From Yamadazyma tenuis (Eukaryota > Ascomycota > Pichiomycetes > Serinales > Debaryomycetaceae): a stretch of 64,000 bases of DNA. Numbering within the stretch: position 1 is the stretch's first letter; each line of letters begins with the position of its first letter. Below the pieces are notes generated by a model, which ran no database searches, had not been told where the DNA came from, and was given only the letters and a program-made list of their open reading frames with translations. The stretch covers positions 1,116,001 to 1,180,000 of the forward strand of contig NC_089462.1 of NCBI RefSeq assembly GCF_029203305.1, in the 5' to 3' direction. This document shows positions 11,651-26,976 of this stretch, piece after piece. A program made the position numbers and the translations under genes.

Positions 11651-12616
11651 ATGCATTTTACCACATTCTTCTTCTTGTTATCGGCAGTGTTCGCCAAGAA
11701 TATCTTGATGTCTAACGATGATGGTTTCGCAGCAACAAATATTAGAGCCCTTTACAGAGACTTGAAAGCTGATGGTCACAATGTTATCATGGTAGCTCCA
11801 GTTTCCCAGAGATCCGGATGGGGTGGGAAGTTCGATGTTCCTTACACCAAGGACTTGTTGACCGATGGTGAATTTGGTTACAGAGTTAAGGGAGACCCTG
11901 CTTGGGGATACGAGCCCGATGACATGAACATCTGGTACTTCAACGGGACCCCAGCATCTTGCGTTTCTTTCGGGTTGGAATACGTGATTCCAAAGTACTT
12001 CAGCAACTTCACCGTTGACTTGGTTGTCAACGGTCCTAATGAAGGTTTGAACTTGGGTCCAGGTACTTACACTGGCTCTGGTACTATTGGTGCCACTTAC
12101 AATTCGGTTTACCACGGTCTTCCAGCCATCGCAATTTCTGCTTCCAATAGCAACAACTCCTTCTATAAGGACTCTTTGGATGACGACCCAACCAACCCAG
12201 CCAACATCAATTCCAAGGTGTCGGTTAAGTTGATTGACGAACTCTTCAAAGCCCAAGGTGACAATTCCAGAGTGTTACCATTAGGCGTGGGTTTGAACGT
12301 TAACATTCCATTGGTTGGTTCTCAATCCGTCAACGGAAGCTGTACCTCTCCCAAATTTGTTTTCAGCAGAATTACTGGTTTGGACTCTGATGTCTCCAAG
12401 ATTACCTACAACGAAACCACCGGTTTGGTTGGAACCACCTACGTCTATGAAGAAGCCTTAAGAACCTGTTACAATGGTGACTGTTCTTTGCCATCTGAAG
12501 CTGCTGTGTCGCAAGAATGGAACTGTTCCACTGCTGTATCTGTTTTCCAGATTGACTACGATGCTACTTTGGTGTTACAGAGCCAAGTCCAGGGATTGCT
12601 ACACGAACTTTTCTAG
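11651..12616 (+). CDS. Secreted SurE-like acid phosphatase/nucleotidase
   Basis: 321 aa from the first ATG of the frame (the frame is open further up only from a TTG). Residues 1-15 (hydrophobic, ending in VFA) form a signal peptide, so the protein should enter the secretory pathway. The mature part starts directly with the SurE metal motif ILMSNDDGF, followed by VAP...RSG, FNGTPASCV and the glycine-rich NGPNEGLNLG..TYTGSGTIGA block. SurE proteins are metal-dependent phosphatases acting on nucleotides and other phosphate monoesters; secreted versions are known as acid phosphatases in yeasts. Several N-glycosylation sequons and paired cysteines in the C-terminal third fit secretion. Upstream Pho4-like sites suggest phosphate control. 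Confidence 0.85.
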   Translation: MHFTTFFFLLSAVFAKNILMSNDDGFAATNIRALYRDLKADGHNVIMVAPVSQRSGWGGKFDVPYTKDLLTDGEFGYRVKGDPAWGYEPDDMNIWYFNGTPASCVSFGLEYVIPKYFSNFTVDLVVNGPNEGLNLGPGTYTGSGTIGATYNSVYHGLPAIAISASNSNNSFYKDSLDDDPTNPANINSKVSVKLIDELFKAQGDNSRVLPLGVGLNVNIPLVGSQSVNGSCTSPKFVFSRITGLDSDVSKITYNETTGLVGTTYVYEEALRTCYNGDCSLPSEAAVSQEWNCSTAVSVFQIDYDATLVLQSQVQGLLHELF

Positions 12617-12714
12617 ATAGATACCCAAATTACCTAAAAGTTTCCTTTGTTTCCGTTAAACTTTCGAATATTGTAGTTTAATAAAATCTTATTGTCTATT
12701 AGTTCTATAAACCC

Positions 12715-14001
12715 TCACAATTTGGATTTGATGAATTTGATTTCCTCCAAGTTGTAATGAGGCCTTGGGAATCTACTCTTTGTATTAGCACCATTATCAA
12801 AAGATGGATTGGATCTCCACTTCCAGGTCTCAGACAAATCAGCAGGCAACGCACCGTTGACCTTTTGGGAAATATACTTTCCAATCGTTGGCAAAAACTT
12901 GAAAGCATGACTCGAATCACCAGTAGCTACGATAACGTCTTTGTAGTATGGGCACTCATCGATGAGAAAATAAGAGTCACACGAGTCTGCAATCCAACAA
13001 ACTTTGGAATCCACTAATTCGTGGTCTGCGAGCTCAGGTACTACCAAATTCAAAAGCACTTTAATATCTTTCTCGTGTCCCAATGGAAATGTTTCGTTGG
13101 GGTGATCCACGGTGTATCTTGGAGCTCTTAATTTGTTTCCAGCTTCGAATGGGTGATCAATTTCAGCCCAAGCATCACATGTAGTAACTCCGATCTTGAT
13201 CACATGATCAACCTTGTCAGGAGGGAAGAAATAACCATACTCGGCGCTGAAGAAAATAGGCATATCCTTGTATTTTTCATATTCAGCATCTGTTAACTTG
13301 ATGTGGGTGACAAAGGTTCCAAATACTTTTGTCTGGTTGTCCAATGGAATAATCAAACCAGTGCTGGCACCGGCAGTAACAACTATTTTTTTAGCCGTGA
13401 AAATCTTACCAGATTTTACTCTTACCTCATTACTTTTGATGCTAACAGCTCTTCCATCGTCACCAAACACAAATTGAGCACCGGATGTGGTGGCTCGTTC
13501 ATATACAGCTTTCAAAGCATCGGCGGACAACCCGGTTCCACAATCAGCATTATAAGTAGAGTTAAACTTAGCAGGAAGATTATTCTTCTTAAAGTGACTA
13601 ATGGTATCAGCAACTTGTTTAGGAGTAGTAAGCTTTTCGAAGCTTTGCGTCACTCCAAGTTTGGCCAAAATTTCAAGACTTTTGTTTTCATATTGGCTTC
13701 TAATTGAGGTGCTATCACCAGGGGTTAATGTCAATCTGCCACTTTTCACGAAATAAGGTTTATATAGTTCATCATTTTCCCAGCATCTTAAAGCTTCAAC
13801 CGCCAACTTGGCAGATAATTCATCAGGATATTCCACACGAATGATCTTATTGTAATCCTTAGCAGCCGATAATTCAGAAGGTACTGGATAAGCATCAAGT
13901 CCAAGCACTTTATGACCCTGCTTGGATAACTCCAAACAGGTCAGAAGGCCAAAGACTCCACATCCAACCACCAACACATCATAATCGTAATCGTCACTCA
14001 T
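12715..14001 (-). CDS. Peroxisomal FAD-dependent amino-acid oxidase (fructosyl-amino acid / saccharopine / pipecolate oxidase family)
   Basis: 428 aa. Residues 8-37 form the Rossmann FAD site (VLVVGCGVFGLLTCLELSKQG). The C-terminal block CWIADSCDSYFLIDECP..KDVIVATGDSSHAFKFLP.IGKYI is typical of monomeric sarcosine oxidase-like enzymes, especially fructosyl-amino acid, saccharopine and pipecolate oxidases, where the CW cysteine is the usual covalent flavin link. The last three residues are SKL, a perfect PTS1, so the H2O2-forming reaction should occur in peroxisomes. The exact amine substrate cannot be read from sequence. It is transcribed away from an adjacent Zn2Cys6 regulator; the shared promoter contains four GATAAG sites and a CGG-N5-CCG element, pointing to nitrogen-regulated catabolism. 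Confidence 0.85.
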   Translation of the reverse strand: MSDDYDYDVLVVGCGVFGLLTCLELSKQGHKVLGLDAYPVPSELSAAKDYNKIIRVEYPDELSAKLAVEALRCWENDELYKPYFVKSGRLTLTPGDSTSIRSQYENKSLEILAKLGVTQSFEKLTTPKQVADTISHFKKNNLPAKFNSTYNADCGTGLSADALKAVYERATTSGAQFVFGDDGRAVSIKSNEVRVKSGKIFTAKKIVVTAGASTGLIIPLDNQTKVFGTFVTHIKLTDAEYEKYKDMPIFFSAEYGYFFPPDKVDHVIKIGVTTCDAWAEIDHPFEAGNKLRAPRYTVDHPNETFPLGHEKDIKVLLNLVVPELADHELVDSKVCWIADSCDSYFLIDECPYYKDVIVATGDSSHAFKFLPTIGKYISQKVNGALPADLSETWKWRSNPSFDNGANTKSRFPRPHYNLEEIKFIKSKL

Positions 14002-14099
14002 GGGTTATGTCCTACGTAATGCCAACCACAAGGTTATATAGGTGAAAAGATGGGTGCGTACACTAATTCAAGTCCAAAGTGGTGCAACCTGAAAGTTGC

Positions 14100-14562
14100 G
14101 ATAAGATCTGTCGGGAACGCCGCATTCAAACGCGCGGTCGGGATGTCCGACAAAAACCTAATAATCCAGCGGAAATGGAAGTCGATAGTCGGAGTTCAGT
14201 AATTGGCTACTCCAGCTACGATTACCCTCAACGAGACCAAGGTTTCGGGCTTATCTTGGGCGCCTAAAAAATCTAATCAGTCTTATCTAGAGGAGTTCCA
14301 GATAGTGGTTTGAACAATGACGACGGAGAAGAGTTGTACTTCGTTGTGGAGTCAGGCATTTTTTCATACATCTGACACGCCTTAAAAGCCAGCTGCAAAT
14401 TTAACGTCGTATTCCAAGTTTCTAGTTTTCGGGTACGCAGAAGAGGCAAGTATCACCTTATGATATATACATCGGTTCTTGGAATGCTGTAGGGGAACAA
14501 TATTGATTCTGATCTGGTAATATCTCGGCTCTTACGTATTACATCCTTTTATATATCTTATC
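14100..14562. promoter_or_regulatory. Cluster of four GATAAG sites in the oxidase/regulator promoter
   Basis: GATAAG occurs at 14100-14105 (+) and, on the minus strand, at 14250-14255, 14282-14287 and 14557-14562, all inside the 652-bp divergent promoter. Such clusters are binding sites of the Gln3/Gat1/Gzf3/Dal80 GATA factors that impose nitrogen catabolite repression. A GATA factor of this type is encoded at 55677 in this window. Confidence 0.5.
14139..14149. promoter_or_regulatory. CGG-N5-CCG inverted repeat, likely Zn2Cys6 binding site
   Basis: CGG-GATGT-CCG, extended to a TCGG...CCGA palindrome (14138-14150). Inverted CGG triplets are the classic target of dimeric zinc-cluster factors. 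The same arrangement recurs in the permease/OXP1 promoter at 18563. A further GTCGGAG half-site is at 14188-14194. Confidence 0.5.
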
Positions 14563-14653
14563 AGATCGTGTGCGCGGCCTGCATCTCTCTCCATTCGGTG
14601 ACTTTTTTGGAGTGGGCATCATATAATTTACTTTCAAGAGTATTTCGCATACA

Positions 14654-16594
14654 ATGGAACCTGAAGGGCAGACTAAAAAGCGTAGAGTGTTAGCTGCTTG
14701 TGTCAAGTGTAAACTGAGAAAGAAAAAAGTATGTGAATTTGCGGCTTGATGCATTATCATATCTCTATTTACTAACGGCTTATAGTGTGATGGGAAGCTT
14801 CCTTCCTGTTCGGTATGTCAGTCCTTGGGAATACCCTGTGTGTACTCGGAAACGAACCTCCAAGTATATCAAACTAGTATGATTCAGCAGATCGACAAGA
14901 TAAATCAACTCGAGGACCTGATGAGAAGTTTGAACGAAGAGTTAGCGATGTTGAAATCAGGCATTTTGAACTCTCAAGTTAACGAGTCTACAAACTACCA
15001 GGAAAAGCTACAGGCACAAGCATTCGTGGATCCTTTGTTGGCTCTTGTAAAGCATCCTCCCAGCGAAAGCTTGTACATTGGGCCATCTGCTGTTATCTCT
15101 AAAGTTCATGCCATTCGGAAGATTCTCACCAATGACAAGGATATCATCAAGAATCCATTGTACCAAATCAAACACAAGCCCATTGAAGAGGTACGTGAAT
15201 ATCCCCCCGCAAAGGGCACAGAAGACTTATTTGTTGAATGTTATTTGACATTTTCTAGAAACAGATACCATTTCATTGAAAAATCAGATGTCACAAAGAT
15301 ATTCAGTAAGACACCCTTGACAAGAGACAAGTGGGAAACATTTGTGACCTATATTGTTTTGGCCAATGGGTGTAGGATGGCAGAATTGGCCAAATTAGCC
15401 ATGCTGCCCTCTCCAAAATTCTATTTTGAAAAGGCGTTTGAGATGCTTGGTCAGCTACCAGTTTTGAATCCAATGCAACAGATCCAAGTTTGTATGTCCC
15501 TTGCGTTGTATCTACATTACAGCTATGATTATCTCAACCCATTTGTCATGAATGTATGGGAGCTTTCCGGGATGGCCATAAGAAAAATGGTTCAATTGGG
15601 TTATCATAAAGCCAGACCCATAGATTTGAAAACATGTATACAAGTGGAGCTTGAAAAGAGACTCTTTTGGTCTGTGTATGCGTTTGACCGACTTCTTACT
15701 CTTTCTTTGGGTCGTCCAGCTTCCCTTCCTGATTCAGAAATAGAAGTACCCTTCCCATTGAGTCTCGAGAGTGTGGATGAATTCTCAAATGAACTAATAC
15801 TTCAATGGCAACAACAACAAGAATCGGAAGCTGACTTTAAGCTTCCTGTAACTTCTATAACATACCTCGTTGAAACATGCCGAGTCAGGGCCATTGAGAG
15901 CAGGATTAATAATTTTGCCTATGGGGAAAAATCACAGGATCAGGAAGATTTCAATACGATAAACAACTCATTGGAAGCGTGGATTTCCAACGTTCCATCT
16001 AGAAAGGAGTTTAGTGAAGGATTAAGAAACGAAGTGCCGTTTGACTACTTGCTTCTTCTATACCACAGAGCCAAGTTGTTCTTGCTATTACCCAAGATTA
16101 CATCTTCGGTAAAGACTGATGTTGCAAACAGACACTCAATATTGTTGCAGACACTAACAGCTTCAGGAGGCATTTGTAAGGCATTCAAGAAGATTCAAAG
16201 GGACTCCATTTTTGGATTCAGTACGTTTTCTTTGCACACGATTTTCTTGGCCGGTGTGACATTAATATACTGTATTTGGGCAATGGAAAGACCTCCATAC
16301 ATTAAAGCTCACAACGATTTGAGGGCATGTTCCAATCTTCTCTATTCTTTCTCCGAAAGAGCCAGTGAAGCAGAAATATATCGGGTGTTGTTCGAAAACT
16401 TGGCTGAAAGCATCTTGTACAATGCTGATGTTGAAGAGCCAACACACGAAGAAGAACAGTTGAGCAACGATAACTTGGATATACAGCTTATAACAGAAGA
16501 CTTGTTTGATGATAGTAGACTTGATCTCAACTTCACATTTGACGAGGATTTCTGGACGAAGTTAGATTCAAAACTCACTACTAAGCTAACGTGA
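14654..16594 (+). CDS. Zn2Cys6 transcription factor, two exons (14654-14728, 14786-16594)
   Basis: 627 aa after removing one intron. The zinc cluster spans the splice junction: C16, C19, C26, C33, C36, C43 (spacing 2-6-6-2-6), with C26 the first codon of exon 2. Residue 21 is a CTG codon; serine fits the usual C..C.S.K.KCDG pattern. A short coiled coil follows (residues about 55-80), and the middle has the fungal-specific factor domain (KRLFWSVYAFDRLLTLSLGRPASLPD). Acidic residues dominate the C-terminus, a likely activation region. It lies between an amino-acid oxidase and a DAL5-type permease/oxoprolinase pair and is a good candidate for their pathway-specific activator. Unspliced RNA stops after seven intron codons. 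Confidence 0.85.
14729..14785 (+). other. Intron within the zinc-cluster gene
   Basis: 57 bp, phase 0: 5' GTATGT, branch sequence TACTAAC at 14770-14776 and 3' TATAG. All three match the yeast consensus. Its removal joins K25 to C26 of the zinc cluster; without it the reading frame hits TGA. Confidence 0.95.
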
Positions 16595-16738
16595 ATTATC
16601 TTGTTTTGTGTATTGAATATTTAATAGATACATATTGGAAAGTTGGCTACACACCAGGGAACTTGAGGTTGATTCACCTCTTGTACCCTATGAAGAATTG
16701 AAATCGCATGTTCTATCAAAGACAGGGACTAGATCTAA

Positions 16739-18331
16739 TCACCAGGTGTATCTGAAATCTTTGTTTTCTCTATCAGTCATGTCAATAAAAGCTGAATTTT
16801 CAACCTTCTTGTAGGCGTCTCCCAAAGCATCTCTTTCACTATCTCTTTTTTTGTTGACGGAATAGTTGTAGTACCCAAGGATTGCAATAGTGAACATAGC
16901 ACCAATGTAGAATCCCACTAAACAGTATTTAGCGGTTGGGTAGTTTGGAGCTTCAGATGCAAGGAATGTTTGTGGACCCACAGCAGAAGAGAAACAGAAT
17001 CCAACCAAATAAATACCGTTACAAACGACTTTTTTGGTTCTTCCAGCGATATCAGCAGATAAACCAGTAAGAGCTGTGACCATGGAAATTGGCGAGAAAC
17101 CAATGAGATAGAAACCGGCCAAAGCAGCGTACTTATTCTTGGAAAAACATAACATACACCCACCCATCAAGGCGAAGCAAAGACCGATTAAAGCAACAAT
17201 TGTTGGGTGTTTAATCAACCTTTTGGAGTTGAGGATACCGATTAGAGACAATCCAAAGAGTTGAACCACCCCAGTTGGAGCTTTCATCAACAATGCCTTT
17301 TCAGTATCAAATTCAAATTCTGTATTCAACAAAATGGATCCATAAGCAGTGATACCCGAGTTAGGAAGTTCAATACAAATTGCAAGCATGGCAAACAAGT
17401 AAGCTCTTGGTTCCAAAAATGCTTCTTTAACCTGATGCCATTTAAAATCTTTGGTACCAAACCCTTGTTCATTATCTCTGATCCTTTCTACTGTCAACAA
17501 CTTATCCTCTTCACTTAACCACCAGGCTTGTGTCGGAAGATCTGGAACAACCAAAACCATTGCCACTGCCAACACCATAGTGACTACTCCAAGAATCAAA
17601 AAAAGAGATCTCCATGAGGTCAAAACCCAGTTGGTAGCATCCTTTTCAATTCCATAAGCTACCACCGACCCGAGAATGTTACCAAAACCAGTTCCAGCGT
17701 AGATAAATGCCATCCTCTTGAACTGTTCATCCTTACGGTAGAAGTTGTTACCCATCAAAGACAATCCGGTAAGAAGGGGAGCTTCAAAGATACCGAGAAA
17801 AAGACGACATACCATAATGGCTGGGTATGTGAACACTGCAGCATGCATAGCCAATACAAATCCCCAAAGGAAAATATAGGCACATAATGTCTTCACCAAT
17901 GGGAATTTTTGCAAGGTCCAAGAACCAGGGAAAGCCCAAGCTAAATAAGCAATGTAGAAACCAGTGGTAAGCCAACTGTACATGGTACCTACCATGGGAC
18001 CAATATCTTTAACACCCATAATAGCCGAATAACCAAGGGTACTACGATCCATAAACTGAACCCCATACATAACTGTCATAAATGGCAAGACAATCATGTC
18101 AACTTTTCTAAGAATACGTTTTTCAGCTTCAGGCGTCAATACCATATCCTTGGTAATATCAGCATATTTCATGGCGAAATCGACCTTTTTGAGGTTAACA
18201 GCCTCTTGCTCTTCTAAAGAAAAGGCTTCCACAGTAACACCTCCATTTTTTTCATTCGAATCTGATACTCCCATGTTGGTAGAACTAGAGTCAGAAGTTG
18301 CAACTACAGAGGAAATAATTTTGTCACTCAT
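16739..18331 (-). CDS. MFS permease of the allantoate/anion:cation symporter (DAL5) family
   Basis: 530 aa with about 12 hydrophobic segments between residues 75 and 500 and a soluble N-terminal tail. Family features include the early RKVDMIVLPFMTVMYGVQFMDRSTLGYSAIMG block in and after the first segment, CRLFLGIFEAPLLTG, and the ending WWLSEEDK in the central loop, all typical of Dal5-like anion symporters. These transport allantoate, ureidosuccinate, nicotinate, dipeptides and other carboxylates across the plasma membrane. It is divergently paired, 333 bp apart, with 5-oxoprolinase, so 5-oxoproline (pyroglutamate) is the most economical guess for the substrate. Convergent with the zinc-cluster regulator. 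Confidence 0.85.
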   Translation of the reverse strand: MSDKIISSVVATSDSSSTNMGVSDSNEKNGGVTVEAFSLEEQEAVNLKKVDFAMKYADITKDMVLTPEAEKRILRKVDMIVLPFMTVMYGVQFMDRSTLGYSAIMGVKDIGPMVGTMYSWLTTGFYIAYLAWAFPGSWTLQKFPLVKTLCAYIFLWGFVLAMHAAVFTYPAIMVCRLFLGIFEAPLLTGLSLMGNNFYRKDEQFKRMAFIYAGTGFGNILGSVVAYGIEKDATNWVLTSWRSLFLILGVVTMVLAVAMVLVVPDLPTQAWWLSEEDKLLTVERIRDNEQGFGTKDFKWHQVKEAFLEPRAYLFAMLAICIELPNSGITAYGSILLNTEFEFDTEKALLMKAPTGVVQLFGLSLIGILNSKRLIKHPTIVALIGLCFALMGGCMLCFSKNKYAALAGFYLIGFSPISMVTALTGLSADIAGRTKKVVCNGIYLVGFCFSSAVGPQTFLASEAPNYPTAKYCLVGFYIGAMFTIAILGYYNYSVNKKRDSERDALGDAYKKVENSAFIDMTDRENKDFRYTW

Positions 18332-18453
18332 AATGGGGAGATGTAGTTTACCAGCCAGAACTATTATAAATATTTATCCATATGGAAAATCTGCTTCTTA
18401 AATGTTTCTACTTTGTGCCGGCATCAACCGTTTTTCGCGATCGCCTTCAGGCA

Positions 18454-18538
18454 CTTATCTGACTTCTGCTAATTTAGGCAGGATGCAGATCTGCCATCTT
18501 TTGTCGGAGAAAGCGCTTTCGCAGTTCCCGACCTTATC
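18454..18538 (-). promoter_or_regulatory. Two GATAAG sites in the permease/OXP1 promoter
   Basis: CTTATC at 18454-18459 and 18533-18538 (GATAAG on the minus strand) within the 333-bp divergent promoter. They support control by nitrogen-responsive GATA factors. Confidence 0.45.
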
Positions 18539-18562
18539 TAGAAACTTTCCTGTTTGGTCAGT

Positions 18563-18573
18563 CGGAGATTCCG
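18563..18573. promoter_or_regulatory. CGG-N5-CCG inverted repeat shared with the oxidase/regulator promoter
   Basis: CGG-AGATT-CCG, about 90 bp upstream of OXP1. It overlaps a GTCGGAG half-site (18561-18567); another lies at 18503-18509. The same spacing occurs at 14139, suggesting one zinc-cluster factor for both promoters. Confidence 0.5.
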
Positions 18574-18664
18574 TAGGTATGAGGTATTCGATAAATGGCT
18601 TCTAAGGTGATTGAATCATATATAGCTTTTAAAACCTCTTACCTAATAACTCAAGAATTCTACC

Positions 18665-21600
18665 ATGACAGTGGGTAACATTAAAATTGCTATTGATCGT
18701 GGTGGAACGTTCACCGACGTGTTGGCCATCATTCCAGGTCAGCCTGATTTCATGTTCAAGTTACTTTCAGTAGATCCAAGCAACTACAAGGATGCTAATA
18801 TCGAAGGTATCAGAAGGGTTTTAGAACACATCCAGAACAGAAAAATAAGCAAGGGAGAACTATTGGACACTAGTTGCATTTCTTCCATCCGATTGGGAAC
18901 AACGGTTGCAACCAATGCATTGTTAGAAAGAAAAGGGGAAAGAATGGCATTTCTTGTCACCAAAGGTTTCAAGGACTTGTTGAAAATTGGTGACCAGACC
19001 AGACCAGATTTGTTTGCTTTGAGGATTATCAAGCCTGAGCCATTGTATGAAGAGGTGGTTGAAATCGACGAAAAAGTCACGATTCCAGGAGCTACTGAAG
19101 ATCCTGAAAGAGTGAACTTTTCATCCAAAGTGGATGGTAAGGAATACATCCTCGGGGCCAGTAGGGATGTATTTAAGGTATTGAAAGATCTTGATGAAAG
19201 TGATTCAAGACTTAAATTGGAACAATTAAGGGCTAAAGGTATCAAGTCAGTTGCCATTTGTTTAGTCCATGGATACAGTTTTCAAGATCACGAAAGAAAG
19301 TTGAAGCAGATTGCTGAGGAAGTAGGATTCGAACATATTTCTGTTTCACATGAGCTTATACCTATGATCAGTGCCATCCCTAGAGCCCAATCAACTGTTT
19401 GTGACGGTTACCTTACACCGGTAGTGAAAGAGTATATTCAAAATCTTCTCGCAGGTTTTGCAAAGGGAACAGAGAACACTACCAGAATTGAATTCATGCA
19501 ATCTGATGGTGGTTTATGTTCTTGGAAGGGGTTCACTGGGTTAAAGGCTTTACTCTCTGGACCTGCTGGTGGTGTTGTCGGTGAAGCCGAAACATGTTAC
19601 GATGAAGACGAAGGAACCCCAATCGTGGGTTTTGATATGGGTGGAACTTCAACAGATGTCTCCAGGTACGCTGGGAACTACGAATTAGTATTCAAGAGCA
19701 CCACTGCGGGTGTTCAAATTGCTGCTCCTCAATTAGATATCAACACGGTTGCGGCTGGTGGTGGATCCATTTTGACTTATAGACACGGGGTGTTCAAAGT
19801 TGGACCTGAATCAGCTGGTGCCCATCCAGGTCCTGCTTGTTATCGAAAAGGTGGCCCATTAACCATCACCGATGCCAACTTGATAACCGGGAGAATCTTG
19901 CCCCAGTTTTTCCCCAAGATCTTTGGTCCTACTGAAGACCAGCCTTTGGACTTTGATATTGTCGAGGAAAAGTTTAAACAGTTGACCAAACAGATCAACC
20001 AAGAAAACCCCGATAAACAATTAACTCCTTACGAAGTTGCGTTGGGGTTCTTGAAAGTGGCTAACTTTTCCATGGCCAAACCGATAAGAGTCTTAACTGA
20101 TTCCAGAGGGTTTGATGTTTCCAGTCATAACCTTGCTTCTTTTGGAGGTGCTGGAGGTCAGCATGCTGTGTCTATTGCCCAAATCTTGAAAATGAAGAGA
20201 GTAGTCATCCACAGATATTCCTCCGTTTTGTCTGCTTATGGTATTGCTTTGGCCGATGTTGTGCAAGAGAATCAAAAACCTTGTCACGAAAAGTACACGG
20301 AACAGAGTAGAGACCAGCTTTTGATCGATTGCGAGAACTTAGTTACCACTGTCAAAGCTAAGTTGATAGAACAGTCGATCGAGGAGAATAGCATTGACGT
20401 GGAGATCTTCTTCAATATGGGATACGCTGGTTCTGATACATTTTTGATGATTTCGCAGCCAAAGGATGGCAATTTCTACAAATCATTTACTGAAGTGCAT
20501 GAACGGGAATTCTCTTTTGTGGACCGGGAAAGAGATGTGATTGTCCATGATATTCGTGTTAGAGCCTCTGGTAGCTTGTCCAAAATTAAGGAAATTTCCC
20601 CATACAAGGATTTGGCATCTTTAGAGGCTTCTGGTAGAATCACTGCCATTGAACGGGGGATCGAAGTTGCAACCACTAAAATCCACTTTGATGAAGGTGT
20701 TTTAGACACCGAGATATTTCAATTGAGTGATATCCCAGTGGGTTCTCTTGTAGCTGGACCAGCATTGATTTTAGATACAACCCAAACCATCTTGGTAACT
20801 CCAGCTTCCAAGGCCACTATTTTGAATCGACACATTCTTGTGGACTTGGAAGAGGGTGGGCATTCCCAATTTTCCACAGACTACGTTGACCCAATTCTTT
20901 TGTCAGTTTTTGCCAATAGATTCACCTCAATTGCCGAAGACATGGGGAGAACCTTACAAAAGATCAGCATCAGTGCCAATATCAAAGAAAGACTCGACTT
21001 TTCTTGTGCACTTTTTGATGAAGAAGGTGATTTAGTAGCTAACGCTCCTCATGTACCTGTTCACTTGGGATCTATGTCTAATAGTATTAGATATGCTAAA
21101 AAGTACTGGGCAGAGAACATTCATCCCGGTGATATCTTAGCTACTAACCACCCTATTGCTGGTGGAACTCATTTGCCAGATATCACGTTGATTTCTCCCG
21201 TTTTCATTAATGGTAAGATTGTATTCTTTACAGCTTCTAGGGCCCATCATGCTGAGATTGGTGGTTCAGTTCCAGGTTCATGTGCTGCTGATGCTACTTC
21301 TCTTTACGAAGAAGGTGCCCAGTTCGTTGCATGGAAGATTGTTAGTAATGGGAAGTTCGATTATGATGGTGTACAAAAACACTTTATTGACGAACCCGCT
21401 CAATACCCAGGCTGCTCTGGGAGTAGAAAAATCGAAGATAACATTTCAGACTTGAAGGCACAAATTGCTTCCAACCAAAGAGGGGTCAACTTGTTGCTTG
21501 AGCTCTTCAAAGAGTATGGTACTGAAACGGTTTTATTCTACATGAAGGGTGTTGAAAACACTGCTGAAAATGCCGTAAGAAGTTTCTTGAGGAGAGTTGC

Positions 21601-22588
21601 TATTGAAAAGAAGGGCTTGCTTCCGTTGAAGGCAGAAGAGATCTTGGATGATGGTTCTAAGATTACTGTTAGTATCGATATCAAGGAAGATGGTTCTGCA
21701 GTCTACGATTTCACTGGAACTAGTGAAGAAGCTTTCAACTGTGGTAACGCTCCAATTGCAATTACTTATGCTTGTATTATTTACTGCTTGCGTTTGATGG
21801 TGAACTCGGACATTCCATTGAACGAGGGATGTCTTAAGCCCATCACTCCAATCATTCCAGAAGGAAGTCTTTTGAATCCTTCACCATACGCAGCAGTTTC
21901 GGCTGCGAACTCTGCAACTGCCCAAAGATTAACTGATACTATCTTAAAAGCATATGAGATATCTGGAGCTTGTTCTGGTTCGAACAACACCTTGGCCTTT
22001 GGTAAAGGTGGAATTGAAGCTGGTGTCATGAAACAAGGATTTGCTATGGTCGAAACCATTGGTGGCGGTATTGGTGCTATTGATGGGTACGACGGATTTT
22101 CCGGTGTTCAATGTCATATGACCAATACCAAGATTACTGATCCTGAAGTGTTGGAATTGAGATACCCGGTTGTACTTCACGAGTTTAGTATTAGAGAGAA
22201 TTCGGGTGGCGATGGTAAGTACAAAGGAGGTGATGGCTTGGAAAGACTTTATGAGTTTACTTCTCCCTTGTCATGCACCATGAGAACCCAAAGAAGGGTG
22301 AACGCTCCTTACGGTATGAAAGGTGGAAAAGAAGCTCTTAGAGGTGAAAACAGATTGGGAAGAAGGAGAGACAACAAAGTACAATGGATCTTACTTCCTT
22401 CATTTGCTCAGTTTAAAGTTGAAGCAGGTGACTTTGTCAGAATTAGAACACCTGGTGGAGGTGGGTTTGGTGCTCCAGAAGAAGTATCTCTGGTTACGAC
22501 TTCAAAAGGTCCAACTCCTAAGGTCCATATTCCTCTAGCTGGAGGAACCATTACCCAATTGACTAATCTCAGCAACAGTTCTCAATAG
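18665..22588 (+). CDS. OXP1: ATP-dependent 5-oxoprolinase
   Basis: 1307 aa, close to yeast Oxp1 (about 1286). It has both halves of the family in one chain: an N-terminal hydantoinase A-like ATP-binding part (IDRGGTFTDVLA at residue 9, GFDMGGTSTDVSRY near 325, GGGSIL, GPESAGAHPGPACYR, SFGGAGGQHA) and a hydantoinase B-like part from about residue 740 (DFSCALFD, HVPVHLGSM, DILATNHP..GGTHLPDIT, GGGGFG at the end). The enzyme opens 5-oxo-L-proline to L-glutamate with ATP hydrolysis in the cytosol, closing the gamma-glutamyl/glutathione salvage route or feeding external pyroglutamate into nitrogen metabolism. Divergent partner is a DAL5-type permease. Intact, no frame breaks. Confidence 0.97.
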   Translation: MTVGNIKIAIDRGGTFTDVLAIIPGQPDFMFKLLSVDPSNYKDANIEGIRRVLEHIQNRKISKGELLDTSCISSIRLGTTVATNALLERKGERMAFLVTKGFKDLLKIGDQTRPDLFALRIIKPEPLYEEVVEIDEKVTIPGATEDPERVNFSSKVDGKEYILGASRDVFKVLKDLDESDSRLKLEQLRAKGIKSVAICLVHGYSFQDHERKLKQIAEEVGFEHISVSHELIPMISAIPRAQSTVCDGYLTPVVKEYIQNLLAGFAKGTENTTRIEFMQSDGGLCSWKGFTGLKALLSGPAGGVVGEAETCYDEDEGTPIVGFDMGGTSTDVSRYAGNYELVFKSTTAGVQIAAPQLDINTVAAGGGSILTYRHGVFKVGPESAGAHPGPACYRKGGPLTITDANLITGRILPQFFPKIFGPTEDQPLDFDIVEEKFKQLTKQINQENPDKQLTPYEVALGFLKVANFSMAKPIRVLTDSRGFDVSSHNLASFGGAGGQHAVSIAQILKMKRVVIHRYSSVLSAYGIALADVVQENQKPCHEKYTEQSRDQLLIDCENLVTTVKAKLIEQSIEENSIDVEIFFNMGYAGSDTFLMISQPKDGNFYKSFTEVHEREFSFVDRERDVIVHDIRVRASGSLSKIKEISPYKDLASLEASGRITAIERGIEVATTKIHFDEGVLDTEIFQLSDIPVGSLVAGPALILDTTQTILVTPASKATILNRHILVDLEEGGHSQFSTDYVDPILLSVFANRFTSIAEDMGRTLQKISISANIKERLDFSCALFDEEGDLVANAPHVPVHLGSMSNSIRYAKKYWAENIHPGDILATNHPIAGGTHLPDITLISPVFINGKIVFFTASRAHHAEIGGSVPGSCAADATSLYEEGAQFVAWKIVSNGKFDYDGVQKHFIDEPAQYPGCSGSRKIEDNISDLKAQIASNQRGVNLLLELFKEYGTETVLFYMKGVENTAENAVRSFLRRVAIEKKGLLPLKAEEILDDGSKITVSIDIKEDGSAVYDFTGTSEEAFNCGNAPIAITYACIIYCLRLMVNSDIPLNEGCLKPITPIIPEGSLLNPSPYAAVSAANSATAQRLTDTILKAYEISGACSGSNNTLAFGKGGIEAGVMKQGFAMVETIGGGIGAIDGYDGFSGVQCHMTNTKITDPEVLELRYPVVLHEFSIRENSGGDGKYKGGDGLERLYEFTSPLSCTMRTQRRVNAPYGMKGGKEALRGENRLGRRRDNKVQWILLPSFAQFKVEAGDFVRIRTPGGGGFGAPEEVSLVTTSKGPTPKVHIPLAGGTITQLTNLSNSSQ

Positions 22589-22804
22589 ATAATTCAAATA
22601 TATATCATCATTTATGAATGGTACTAGAACAAGTATCCTTTTAAGTTATAAATTCTTGTTACTGCCGTACCTAGGAGAAAAAGCTCTTTTCTGTTGGACA
22701 AATAGTAGTTAAACTGAAACTAGTAGCGCAAATTTGCAACAAACACAGATTAAATCTTACGAAATCTTCATTATGGTGTCTATACATATACTTTTAGTAC
22801 GTCC

Positions 22805-25108
22805 TTATTCTATCCACGACCTTCCAGCGGGAAAGTTCTCTACCTTAAGATCTGCTCTCTTGACCACAGAGTTGGAATTTTCAAGACCTTGTCTTTTCTT
22901 TTGCGATCTCAAGGCACTATTGAAGTTTCCACCATTACCAATGACAGAATTCAATACCGAGTCAACTGGCATAGGTCTTAACTTTTGGTCATTAGCATCC
23001 TGTTTAATTACCAAAGACTGGTTCACCCTTTTCCCTTCGTTGAACAAACCAGTCTTATCAATAATATGAATAGTGTAGCTTAATCCTTCATGGGTGTACT
23101 GGTCTACGAAAAGATCCAACCTGTCCCCATCAAATATCTGGATCTTATTCCCCTTACCAATCTTTCCACCATTGAGAAAGCAAGAATTGGTGCTAAAATC
23201 AAGAAGCCATATATCTTCAAGACAATGAGCGGGACTTTCATAAATGCTGAGCTCCATCACCGGATGCCTTCTTCTATTTAACAAACAGTGTATTTTCGAC
23301 ATTCTGTCATCGTTGATGTAAGTGTCACAGGTTTCATTTCTGCCTATTGCGTATGGGTTGATACCTTGTCGTATGACAATAGGCTTATCAAGCATCAGGT
23401 CTTTAGTAGGTTCTAGCATGATAAATGTATCAAGAGGCAAGTTTGTGAATTTTTTCTGGGGGCCCTCCATGGGTTGTCCACTTACTGCTTGAGTAGTTGA
23501 TTGTTTGATAAAACCATTGACTTTCGTGAAATCATCGTTATCTCGCTTGACTGGCTGACTTTGTGGTAAAGGAACCACTCTTTTGGGAACCTTGAATTCT
23601 TCTTTCTTTAATGGCCTCATCATCATATCTTGGTCTTGATCATCGATTTGATTGTTGGAGGTGATTGAAATGCCGTTGTCAATCTTTCGTAGTTGCTGAG
23701 ATTGTGATTGTGATAAACTGAGTCTTTGGGACTGCGAGCCTCCATTGGCGGGAAACTCAAGGTCATCTCCCATGCCATCATCAATAGACTTAATCCATTC
23801 GTGGTTCAATGCTTGTTCAGTGGTGAATCTATCTTCTGGTTTTACAATAAGGCAGTTTTTGATGAAGTCAAGTCCGAGCTCACTAACTTTGTACATGTTC
23901 AAAGGACTAGTATGGTACTGTCCAGATTTGATTTTAGAAAACATTTGGTTTTGTGTTTTGCCATTAAATGGTAAGTGAGATGTTAACAAAACATAAACCA
24001 AACAGCCCAATGACCATATGTCCACCGAATTGTCGTACAATGTATTTGGGGATTGTGATTGGGTCTGTGTCTGCGTGGGTTGTGAGGCTCCATATTTCCC
24101 CGTGATTATCTCGGGTGCAACATAGGCTAAAGTACCACAAAATGTTTTCATGAAGGTTGAATTATCACTGATCTTGGCCAAACCAAAATCACTGATTTTC
24201 ACCACAATTGGATCATCACTCATGATGAGGATGTTGTCAGGTTTCAAGTCCCGGTGACTTATTCCTTTACTATGCACATAATGAATCCCTTTCAATATTT
24301 GCTTGGTTATAACTCTGGTGGCCTCTTCACCGATAGCCCCATTTGCTGCCACAAAATCCATGAGGTCTCCACCGGGAACAAACTCCATCACAAGATAGTA
24401 GTTATCCAAATCCTCATAAAAGGACTTAAGTTTGACGATATTGGGATGATTCAACTTGCGTAAAATGCTCAACTCTCTCTCTACTTCAACCATACCTCCG
24501 CCTGTATTCAAAGCCTTCCGCTTGTTGATAATCTTGACAGCATACGCATCGCCGGTAGCCCTCTCTATAACTTTTTTTACGGTAGCAAACGCTCCCTGAC
24601 CGATGGTTTCATTATGAACAATAAAATCCTTATATATGCCTTCGTCTTTGATGGTTGAATTGTGGTTACTGGGATTGAACAAGTCAGAGAATAACACCAC
24701 GAACTTCAATTCATCTTTTCTGACACCATTCCCCACTGATACCTCATCACCTTGGTTGAGCATATAATTAGACCCCTTCACTAGTCGATTATTGTTCAAA
24801 TAAGTACCATTTGTAGACGTGTCTTGAACCCACAACGTCTTACCGTCGATGTTGAACCAGAACTTGAAGTGTTTGTTCAGATATCGCGTGCTGTTATTTA
24901 GTATAAAATCGTTTTCCTGGTTTCTTCCAAAGCTCCAACTCTTCTTGCCGCCGCTTATATTAAAGTCAAAAAAAGTGTATTGCCCAGTGGTACAGATTAG
25001 ACGGCACAAATGATTAGGATCCGTCGAGGGAGCCTGAGTGCTAGGTGACTGCTGTGTAGGCTGGGTGGCCTGGGTCGGCTCCATCGTTTGTGAGGGTTGA
25101 GTTCTCAT
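22805..25108 (-). CDS. RAD53: Rad53/Chk2 checkpoint kinase
   Basis: 767 aa with the full Rad53 order. N-terminal SQ/TQ cluster (residues 3-25), first FHA domain about 35-150 (FGRN at 60-63, STNGTYLN), kinase domain about 170-450 (GQGAFATVKK, AVKIINK, HRDLKPDN, DFGLA, FCGTLAYVAPE), second FHA domain about 570-690 (YAIGRNETCDTYI.DDRMSKIHC), basic C-terminus. Two FHA domains separate it from Dun1. Rad53 is phosphorylated by Mec1/Tel1 and, through Rad9 and Mrc1, transmits DNA-damage and replication-stress signals. The segment after the APE motif carries an unusual TQ/SQ-rich insert. An MluI box lies about 50 bp upstream of the ATG. Confidence 0.97.
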   Translation of the reverse strand: MRTQPSQTMEPTQATQPTQQSPSTQAPSTDPNHLCRLICTTGQYTFFDFNISGGKKSWSFGRNQENDFILNNSTRYLNKHFKFWFNIDGKTLWVQDTSTNGTYLNNNRLVKGSNYMLNQGDEVSVGNGVRKDELKFVVLFSDLFNPSNHNSTIKDEGIYKDFIVHNETIGQGAFATVKKVIERATGDAYAVKIINKRKALNTGGGMVEVERELSILRKLNHPNIVKLKSFYEDLDNYYLVMEFVPGGDLMDFVAANGAIGEEATRVITKQILKGIHYVHSKGISHRDLKPDNILIMSDDPIVVKISDFGLAKISDNSTFMKTFCGTLAYVAPEIITGKYGASQPTQTQTQSQSPNTLYDNSVDIWSLGCLVYVLLTSHLPFNGKTQNQMFSKIKSGQYHTSPLNMYKVSELGLDFIKNCLIVKPEDRFTTEQALNHEWIKSIDDGMGDDLEFPANGGSQSQRLSLSQSQSQQLRKIDNGISITSNNQIDDQDQDMMMRPLKKEEFKVPKRVVPLPQSQPVKRDNDDFTKVNGFIKQSTTQAVSGQPMEGPQKKFTNLPLDTFIMLEPTKDLMLDKPIVIRQGINPYAIGRNETCDTYINDDRMSKIHCLLNRRRHPVMELSIYESPAHCLEDIWLLDFSTNSCFLNGGKIGKGNKIQIFDGDRLDLFVDQYTHEGLSYTIHIIDKTGLFNEGKRVNQSLVIKQDANDQKLRPMPVDSVLNSVIGNGGNFNSALRSQKKRQGLENSNSVVKRADLKVENFPAGRSWIE

Positions 25109-25155
25109 GCAGTTACAGCCTTTGACTAAGCTTTAGAGGAATCGATTTTCTCTGA

Positions 25156-25161
25156 ACGCGT
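25156..25161. promoter_or_regulatory. MluI cell-cycle box (ACGCGT) upstream of RAD53
   Basis: Perfect MBF core ACGCGT 48 bp upstream of the RAD53 start, in the short gap after PTR2. Consistent with G1/S expression of DNA-damage and replication genes. Confidence 0.5.
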
Positions 25162-25233
25162 CTTACAATGTGCGACTCAACTTTTTTTTGGATACGTTTA
25201 CTTGTACAGATATTCTATATGACATAAAGAGCT

Positions 25234-26976
25234 TCATACGTTTCTTAATGAATGGGAAATGGAAGCCACAGGGATCAAGTCTTCGGATGGATCTTTGTCG
25301 TAGTCTAATTGATTTAATTCTTCTTCTTTATCATTGTAGTGGTGGAAGATAAGCCAAAACAAACATCCAGCAATAAAACAGGCAACGGCTAACCCAGTAT
25401 AAGACCACACAAATTTAGGGTTTTTAGATGTTGGTGACAAGGCAATTCCAATGGCAGAACCAAAGGCATTGGTCAACAAGTATAAGGAAGTGATAAACGA
25501 TTTCATTGATACTGGGGCTTTAGTATAAGCATATTCCAATCCAGTGATGTTAGCAAAGATTTCAGATAATCCAATTAATACATAAGCTGGAGTTTGGAGA
25601 GCAATATGAATGTGGTTTGGAGTGTTAGCATACTTGGAATTACAGGCCTTTGGCATGTCATAACATGGACCGGCTTTGTAAACGTAGTATTGTAAGACGG
25701 CTGCGTATACCATGGCACCAGTTGCCCACATGAATCCAAAGAAGATTCTGGTGATCGATTTGAAAGGAGTGAACTTTCTGATTAATGGGTAGAACACTCT
25801 GTCACAAAGTGGCACAAACACAATAATAGCAAGGGAGTTGATGACACTCAAAATATCGTTTGGTAAACCATGCAATTCCATCATACCAGCTTGGGACACA
25901 AAATTGTTGGTCATTTGGCCGTAAACAAGCCAGTAAATTGGATAGAAACAAAACAATTTGCAAGCAAAGAAAGCTCTTCTGACTTCGTCCACAAAGTGGT
26001 CACTCCAAGGGTAGTTGGCTTCTGGTTTCACAGAAGGTTTAACAGTTTCAAAGTTGAGCCTGTTCTTCAAGGCAATGAAGAGAATCCTGAAACATTTGGC
26101 GATGATTTTGTCACCTACAGGAACTTTCACATATTGGTTTCTTCCGAGTACCAAGGCGATGACGGCAAGAAAGAAGAAGCAGAATGGTAACAAATAAGCA
26201 GCCCAAAATCCCACATGTTTTTCCAATTGCGTAGTAGCCACAACCGACAAGGAGCCGATGTTGATCATGAAATAAAAAATCATAAACACATTTTGAATGG
26301 TTAAAGCTGGGTCAACTACCACTCTTTCTCCCGACTCCATAATCTTGATGTAAGGTTTCTCTTTTGGAACTTGATCAGCAATCAAAGGAGAGACATTAGA
26401 CTTGACACCACCGGTTGCAATGCCGATGATGATAATTGCAGTGACAAATCCACCCAATGAGGTATTTTTATCAGCCACAGAAGGTATGGAGGTGATGAAT
26501 AAGATGAAAATACCCACAATGTAGATACCACAAAACACACTAATAGATTTGAACTTTCCCAAGTAGGTGTCGGCAATCCAAGCCCCAAAAATTGGTGTAA
26601 CGTAACACCAAAACTGGAAAAAGTATGATAAAGCAGTGGCAGAAGAGTTACCTAAGCTCAATACACCAGCCGGAGAATCAGAAGGAGTGTTTTGCATATA
26701 GTTTTGGAATGGTGTAGACAATCCATAATAACTGAATCTCTCAGCCAATTCCACTATTGCTACTAACCAGCACCTTATGGGGATTGAGCCAGATATATGT
26801 CTTAAAGTCTTCAACTCTTCAGTGGTAGCCTCAACCTTTTCCTCAGTTGACAGTGACTGTGAATCTTCATCAGCCAAAGCCTTCAAGGAACCTGATGAAG
26901 CATATTTCTTTTCTTCTTTAAGAGCCGTTTCGTTGACTCTGGGTTCGACAATTTTAGATTCGGACACAGCAGACAT
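25234..26976 (-). CDS. PTR2: Di/tripeptide:proton symporter (Ptr2, POT family)
   Basis: 580 aa from the ATG at 26976; the frame upstream opens only at a TTG. The POT/PTR signatures are present: ELAERFSYYGLSTPFQNYMQ in the first membrane region, AWIADTYLGKFKSI (loop 2-3), GIATGGVKSNVSPLIADQ, and FYFMINIGSL in the fifth segment. About 12 membrane segments are visible, with the fungal central loop and soluble ends. Ptr2 imports di- and tripeptides with protons at the plasma membrane as a nitrogen source; in yeasts it is induced by peptides and repressed by good nitrogen sources. A 1.6-kb gene-free region upstream probably carries its control sequences. Confidence 0.92.
   Translation of the reverse strand: MSAVSESKIVEPRVNETALKEEKKYASSGSLKALADEDSQSLSTEEKVEATTEELKTLRHISGSIPIRCWLVAIVELAERFSYYGLSTPFQNYMQNTPSDSPAGVLSLGNSSATALSYFFQFWCYVTPIFGAWIADTYLGKFKSISVFCGIYIVGIFILFITSIPSVADKNTSLGGFVTAIIIIGIATGGVKSNVSPLIADQVPKEKPYIKIMESGERVVVDPALTIQNVFMIFYFMINIGSLSVVATTQLEKHVGFWAAYLLPFCFFFLAVIALVLGRNQYVKVPVGDKIIAKCFRILFIALKNRLNFETVKPSVKPEANYPWSDHFVDEVRRAFFACKLFCFYPIYWLVYGQMTNNFVSQAGMMELHGLPNDILSVINSLAIIVFVPLCDRVFYPLIRKFTPFKSITRIFFGFMWATGAMVYAAVLQYYVYKAGPCYDMPKACNSKYANTPNHIHIALQTPAYVLIGLSEIFANITGLEYAYTKAPVSMKSFITSLYLLTNAFGSAIGIALSPTSKNPKFVWSYTGLAVACFIAGCLFWLIFHHYNDKEEELNQLDYDKDPSEDLIPVASISHSLRNV

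Follow-up and report, generated by a model that had tools for sequence, protein, structure and literature searches.

A conserved and partly duplicated gene cluster of Yamadazyma tenuis that links a putative peroxisomal secondary-amine oxidase to a 5-oxoprolinase-like enzyme

The four-gene cluster

In this study, we analyzed a 64,000-nucleotide stretch of the genome of the yeast Yamadazyma tenuis (G000:C2:1116001-1180000, hereafter the window, to which all positions without a contig name refer), and focused on four genes at 12715-22588 that encode a flavin adenine dinucleotide (FAD)-dependent oxidase, a Zn2Cys6 regulator, a permease of the major facilitator superfamily (MFS) and a 5-oxoprolinase-like enzyme. 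The genome comprises 10.86 Mb on 8 contigs, and CTG was translated as serine (table 12). We found that the cluster is real, conserved, partly duplicated and catabolic, with relatives elsewhere in fungi. The four genes could quite plausibly act together in the catabolism of an N-substituted 5-oxoproline, for example the lactam of an opine or of saccharopine, or of a closely similar compound.

The oxidase gene (12715-14001, minus strand) encodes 428 residues with a PF01266 domain, is assigned to the FAD-dependent secondary-amine oxidases of the DAO family, and ends in SKL, a peroxisomal targeting signal (PTS1). It shares a promoter (14002-14653) with the regulator gene on the plus strand (14654-16594; exons 14654-14728 and 14786-16594), whose single 57-nt intron (14729-14785) has the form GTATGT...TACTAAC...TAG, TACTAAC being the branch site. 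The spliced regulator of 627 residues contains the pattern CX2CX6CX6CX2CX6C at residues 16-43 and a PF04082 fungal transcription factor domain. A second shared promoter (18332-18664) separates the permease gene (16739-18331, minus strand, 530 residues) from the gene for a 1307-residue HyuA-HyuB fusion protein (18665-22588, plus strand), which belongs to the ATP-dependent lactamases of the 5-oxoprolinase family. A sequence-only reading of the window had placed the four genes at these coordinates and in these orientations, and had noticed the SKL terminus of the oxidase; both were confirmed here.

Linkage of the two enzyme genes in yeasts

Linkage in relatives was judged from locus tags and from source contigs of identical base count, which were taken as the same contig, for the best 120 of 179 oxidase matches, 70 of the 120 listed oxoprolinase matches (from a total of 7993) and 41 of 62 permease matches. 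Oxidase and oxoprolinase-like matches formed 17 same-size pairs on 14 contigs, compared with a mean of 0.057 (maximum 2) over 1000 offsets. One of these contigs was the window's own and another carried a second cluster of the same species, while three of the 17 pairs represented additional oxidases on a scaffold already counted. Three contigs were common to oxidase and permease matches (0.082 expected) and three to oxoprolinase and permease matches (0.016 expected), and relatives of all three occurred together on two contigs, one of 29536 bases and one of 281015 bases ([Candida] jaroonii). In Priceomyces carsonii, the locus tags are close in number, both for a window-type oxidase/oxoprolinase pair (PRCAT00002159/PRCAT00002161) and for another pair (PRCAT00004260/PRCAT00004259).

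The second cluster of Y. tenuis (C3:1313960-1327122) includes a Zn2Cys6 regulator gene (1313960-1315393), two oxoprolinase-like genes whose products are 59% and 50% identical to the window protein, an oxidase paralog with 41% identity, and a DAL5-family permease. One of its oxoprolinase paralogs is identical to protein P0162 of Y. tenuis ATCC 10573, whose listed contig equals in size that of the reference oxidase protein P0116. With a fourth member on C7 (48% identical to the window protein), the genome contains four oxoprolinase-like genes. The sequence-only reading had named a neighbourhood not conserved in relatives as the result that would speak against a cluster; shared contigs, the P. 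carsonii tags and the second cluster all indicate conservation.

Matching divergence of the two enzymes

We then compared the phylogenies of the two enzymes. The oxoprolinase tree, built by a quick method from 41 rows (37 of the 120 listed matches and four own sequences), resolved three groups (window-type, C3-type and one further, hereafter the third group), and the oxidase tree (31 rows, 30 of the 120 listed matches and one own) contained a window-type group (support 100/100) and a C3-type group (100/98). Linked pairs with a window-type oxoprolinase signature had a window-type oxidase in 4/4 cases, and those with a C3-type signature had a C3-type oxidase in 8/8, so that the two enzymes matched in 12/14 linked pairs overall. 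Moreover, 12/26 oxoprolinases with a window or C3 signature were linked to an oxidase versus 1/39 of the third group (Fisher 2.4e-5), a comparison that covers 65 of the 70 rows (the other five, including one linked row, belong to neither set) and whose p value is optimistic since the rows are related.

These results bear on the possibility that the cluster simply holds two nitrogen-scavenging reactions that run in parallel under common control, i.e., a plain 5-oxoprolinase that would form glutamate from pyroglutamate, together with an oxidase whose substrate would be an unrelated secondary amine (saccharopine, pipecolate or sarcosine, for instance). This view comes close to the sequence-only reading. 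The intact metal-site residues of the lactamase would fit this, as would the names 5-oxoprolinase and L-saccharopine oxidase that relatives carry in their sources, and an oxoprolinase with a permease but without an oxidase appears in the available gene lists of the wine-yeast region B and of Pichia sorbitophila. However, the oxidase is linked mainly to two of the three oxoprolinase groups and only rarely to the remaining one, and signatures match in most linked pairs. This fits one shared pathway better than two parallel steps, which we regard as somewhat unlikely. The same evidence is relevant to whether the four genes are merely chance neighbours without a common function. Zinc-cluster and MFS genes are abundant, with 18 matches to the window regulator and 32 MFS matches to the window permease in this genome, but the conserved linkage, the second cluster and the matching enzyme groups strongly disfavor this explanation, leaving it with an extremely small probability.

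Residues of the oxidase

Among solved structures, FAOX/FPOX were the best relatives of the oxidase (E 1e-55), whereas monomeric sarcosine oxidase was more distant (E 5e-19). The covalent-FAD cysteine and the active-site residues are present as C335, D49, N51, K52 and K269 (C343, D54, N56, K57 and K274 of 5t1e); in the 120 listed relatives, the D, N, K and K are kept in all and the flavin cysteine in 113. The DAO domain, the covalent-FAD cysteine and the active-site lysines are common to the window oxidase, FAOX/FPOX and the fungal saccharopine/pipecolate oxidases. Plasmid relatives comprised 37 records with 21-30% identity, and those with names were annotated as N-methyltryptophan oxidase, sarcosine oxidase or FAD-dependent oxidoreductase. 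The name saccharopine oxidase is carried by the C. jaroonii orthologue and by a S. osmophilus relative on a long branch, as a name and not as the outcome of an assay.

With FAOX/FPOX as top solved relatives and relatives elsewhere named fructosyl amino acid oxidase, catabolism of fructosyl amino acids (Amadori compounds) with an FAOX as key enzyme has to be considered. According to the available text, fructose binding in FPOX involves W235, E278, G372 and R415 (PMC5459902). In the window oxidase, W235, E278 and G372 are replaced by T229, T273 and S364. The W and E are found in 0/120 listed family members at the aligned columns (six of the 120 carry an E shifted a few columns downstream) and the G in 102/120, while a separate FAOX-like paralog of the same genome (L032) keeps all three. 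The R415 column, where the tail alignment is poor, shows F411 in the window oxidase and I in L032 as well. The fructosyl site that characterizes FAOX/FPOX is thus absent from the window oxidase, and its identity as a fructosyl-amino-acid oxidase was rejected because all three confidently aligned recognition residues (3/3) are changed. On these residues, a fructosyl substrate appears unlikely, and Amadori catabolism as the role of the whole cluster is very improbable. The earlier proposal of a nitrogen-catabolic cluster for pyroglutamate and/or secondary amines such as fructosyl amino acids holds in part: the association of the genes is real and conserved, and a nitrogen-catabolic role fits it, but a fructosyl-amino-acid substrate is not supported.

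Residues of the oxoprolinase-like enzyme

The window protein is a fusion of Hydant_A_N, Hydantoinase_A and Hydantoinase_B. It shares the HyuA+HyuB architecture and the Asp-His-Asp-His metal site with ATP-dependent lactamases (5-oxoprolinase, CapAB and N-methylhydantoinase), and differs from them at three mapped pocket positions. The available text on caprolactamase describes such a metal site (PMC8453981). Its counterpart here, the tetrad D778/H836/D839/H861, is kept in 120/120 listed matches and in the four own paralogs. At the mapped pocket positions, the window enzyme has the group-specific residues C873, S1083 and R1207, a mapping that depends on CapB, to which the protein aligns weakly (E 6e-39); the three occur together in eight of the first 70 matches, the window protein included. 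Saccharomyces cerevisiae OXP1 was not among the 120 listed matches (7993 found). The fused architecture and the metal site are those of 5-oxoprolinases (OXP1/OPLAH), but the label OXP1 that the gene had been given is too firm for one of four such genes with group-specific pocket residues.

Among solved structures, an N-methylhydantoinase (7hk5) was the closest to the protein (E 9e-114), which together with the relationship of the oxidase to monomeric sarcosine oxidase could point to a hydantoin-type route: the HyuA-HyuB enzyme would open the ring of N-methylhydantoin or a similar compound, and the flavoenzyme would later oxidize a sarcosine-like amine. No carbamoyl-amide hydrolase was found among the seven genes at 11651-26976, no genome-wide search having been made, and the oxidase is far closer to FAOX-type enzymes than to sarcosine oxidase. 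We consider this route improbable.

Permease and shared promoters

The permease had been described as DAL5-type, which is correct at the level of the DAL5/allantoate-permease family but does not make it the DAL5 orthologue. A C. metapsilosis protein named DAL5 is 51% identical to the product of C2:1596705 and 47% to that of C4:93148, compared with 41% for the window permease, and orthology with DAL5 was rejected because these two are closer.

With regard to the promoters, CGG-N5-CCG sites were found at 14112 and 14139 between oxidase and regulator and at 18563 between permease and oxoprolinase-like gene; the sequence-only reading had reported the latter two and overlooked the one at 14112. Its counts of GTCGGA (two in each promoter) and GATAAG (four and two) agreed with ours. 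CGG-N5-CCG occurs 955 times in the genome, so that 0.087 sites would be expected in the 985 bp of both promoters, where three were seen (Poisson 1e-4). All three are preceded by GT, and the resulting GTCGG-N5-CCG has 131 oriented matches genome-wide and three places in the promoters (Poisson 2.8e-7), a pattern picked once the sites had been seen, which makes these motif tests post hoc. Relative to 13.9 kb of other intergenic window DNA, GTCGG (four in the first promoter and three in the second, 7 in total versus 0.99 expected) and GATAAG (6 versus 0.57 expected) were also frequent.

The local Zn2Cys6 factor is a possible activator of both promoters. Speaking against a purely local control, the oxoprolinase paralogs C3b (site at 1322957) and C7 (722000) are each preceded by a single CGG-N5-CCG, with none before C3a, so that 3/4 oxoprolinase paralogs of the genome have the site. 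The C7 regulator (PF04082 plus a zinc cluster) is the fourth of the window regulator's 18 matches, with 28% identity over part of its length, and the C3 regulator is not among them. A wider regulator acting on several oxoprolinase genes is thus possible too. The nearest paralog of the window regulator, L037 (C1:784074), is flanked by an amidase gene and a polysaccharide-deacetylase-family gene, the latter presumably PuuE-like. Elsewhere in the genome, four oriented GTCGG-N5-CCG matches at three places were observed within 191 bp (C4:1172005-1172195), upstream of an MFS match at 1173060.

Relation to known systems

Several published loci contain parts of this gene set. The 17-kb region B of wine yeast (S. 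cerevisiae EC1118, acquired from Zygosaccharomyces bailii) is described in the available text as carrying genes for two regulators together with an OXP1-like 5-oxoprolinase and an MFS permease of the TNA1 type (PMC7212421), and its role is called undetermined (available excerpt of PMC3053389). By gene listing, it has in common with the window cluster a regulator, an oxoprolinase and a DAL5/TNA1-family permease; unlike the window cluster, its five genes as listed in the excerpt include a FLO11-like gene and no flavin oxidase. In the same limited sense, the ochrindole A cluster of Aspergillus steynii resembles the window by the names of its genes: a fructosyl amino acid oxidase, an allantoate permease and a 5-oxoprolinase are among five of its 17 genes that are absent from Aspergillus affinis (available text of PMC8709101). 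In that excerpt, these genes are cited as possibly biosynthetic, without a regulator or a catabolic role, which differs from our interpretation of the window. In P. sorbitophila, four OXP1 genes (PISO0I02648g, PISO0J04431g, PISO0J03595g and PISO0E04690g) and four nicotinate/allantoate-permease genes (PISO0I02626g, PISO0J04409g, PISO0J03617g and PISO0E04646g) appear in the available lists (PMC3284337). The available text on Cryptococcus neoformans reports the oxoprolinases CNAG_06872/06873 and the DAL5-like CNAG_06875 as all raised in the same lineage, and CNAG_06875 appears also in the excerpt of PMC5484541. The earlier statement that the exact combination had not been described thus holds for all four genes in the literature searched, while three-gene parts of it are in print. 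No proposal of a shared catabolic pathway for these genes was found in that literature.

The closest bacterial counterpart was found on the octopine Ti plasmid NC_002377, where a DAO oxidase, HyuA and HyuB follow each other in direct succession (82856-87913). We take this trio, part of the opine-catabolic block, to be agaE, agaF and agaG, whose products would open the lactam of agropinic acid and cleave the resulting mannopinic acid. The pairing of a DAO oxidase with HyuA/HyuB is the same as in the window, whereas the plasmid block is bacterial, has HyuA and HyuB as separate genes and is served by ABC transporters, in contrast with the fused HyuA-HyuB and the MFS permease of the yeast; in addition, the oxidase adjoins HyuA/HyuB on the plasmid, whereas in the window both lie within one 10-kb cluster without being adjacent. 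A general bacterial rule of a fused oxoprolinase beside a DAO oxidase was also considered and is unsupported, a DAO-type frame being present nearby at 4/80 bacterial fused-oxoprolinase loci. At one inspected Agrobacterium plasmid locus, the neighbour was a Glu/Leu/Phe/Val dehydrogenase gene.

A possible pathway for N-substituted 5-oxoprolines

ATP-dependent lactamases of the 5-oxoprolinase family convert a lactam to an amino acid. In the pathway that we prefer, the permease would import an N-substituted 5-oxoproline, i.e., the lactam of an N-alkyl glutamate, and the HyuA-HyuB enzyme, using ATP, would open its ring; the resulting glutamate, still substituted at its nitrogen, would be a secondary amine. 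Its C-N bond would then be cleaved by the FAD oxidase in the peroxisome, where H2O2 would arise, with glutamate and a fragment of aldehyde or keto type as the other products. Both divergent promoters would be under control of the Zn2Cys6 factor and GATA factors. Oxidase and lactamase make sense as successive steps because an N-substituted lactam would give a secondary amine, the substrate class of the oxidase family. The octopine Ti plasmid offers a precedent for such a pairing, although not a general one. The gene families, catalytic residues, PTS1, conserved linkage, joint divergence of the enzymes and motif enrichment are seen in the sequences themselves, whereas we infer the substrate, the order of the steps, the handover of product to substrate between the enzymes and the regulation.

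Several observations weigh against this pathway. First, from equal contig size we infer one contig, and only five of the 14 shared contigs are shorter than 52 kb; the rest are larger and hence no proof of closeness. Second, 2/14 linked pairs are mixed (contigs 309628 and 1678882), with a C3-type oxidase and an oxoprolinase of another group. Third, PTS1 is absent from 37 of the 120 listed oxidase relatives (the strict form [SAC][KRH][LM] is present in 42 and looser forms in 41), and DAO-type frames are scarce at the bacterial loci mentioned above. Fourth, the oxoprolinase-permease pairs without a listed oxidase in the available descriptions of region B and P. sorbitophila would fit plain use of 5-oxoproline too; the P. 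sorbitophila gene names step by 22, which presumably indicates neighbouring genes. Fifth, a permease that matches the window permease is found no more than 5 kb from 6/15 DAO-family genes (0.037 expected per gene), and 4/13 still do so when the window and C3 clusters are left out (P 0.001), based on an incomplete list of 14 genes from 14 of 31 candidates scored plus one further gene. Such proximity fits a general design in which a permease accompanies a flavin oxidase for nitrogen compounds.

Finally, the second cluster departs from the first in three respects. Its oxidase gene changes reading frame near 1320096, so that it is read in two pieces, and has SHL as last residues, and P0116 (342 residues) agrees with the first 323 residues of its first piece; this gene may be broken, since the break is present in both the genome and the reference-protein records. 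Its regulator has the domain PF11951 and is absent from the matches of the window regulator, and its permease is 30% identical to the window permease and not its nearest paralog. Judged by these last two differences, the conserved core in yeasts is the oxidase/oxoprolinase enzyme pair.

A broader interpretation would be a dedicated, conserved and duplicated two-enzyme yeast pathway for N-substituted 5-oxoprolines that resemble opine lactams, in which the ring is opened at the expense of ATP and glutamate is then released by oxidation in the peroxisome. It would be the equivalent in eukaryotes of the Ti-plasmid agropinate module, its window-type and C3-type clusters being tuned to different N-substituents; taken as a whole, we hold this to be unlikely. 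More generally, joining two enzyme families that are normally annotated apart in one conserved unit makes the substrate predictable. It also suggests what the oxoprolinase-permease genes of wine yeast, so far unexplained, and the oxidase-permease-oxoprolinase genes listed at an Aspergillus biosynthetic cluster may do, and calls for caution with the names 5-oxoprolinase and fructosyl amino acid oxidase, since the fungal proteins that bear them may have other substrates.

Neighbouring genes and other loci

The cluster is bordered by a SurE-like gene at 11651 and an FHA protein kinase gene at 22805. Beyond the latter, two genes past the cluster, lies a gene for a PTR2-type peptide transporter (25234-26976). 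Other DAO-MFS permease neighbour pairs of the genome are C4:91386/93148, C2:92115/90288, C3:12810/9753 and C2:2164714/2163024. The fourth oxoprolinase-like gene lies within C7:711000-732144 together with the Zn2Cys6 regulator, membrane-dipeptidase-family, FMO-like, 2-hydroxyacid dehydrogenase and several MFS genes, and this region is perhaps another nitrogen-catabolic cluster.

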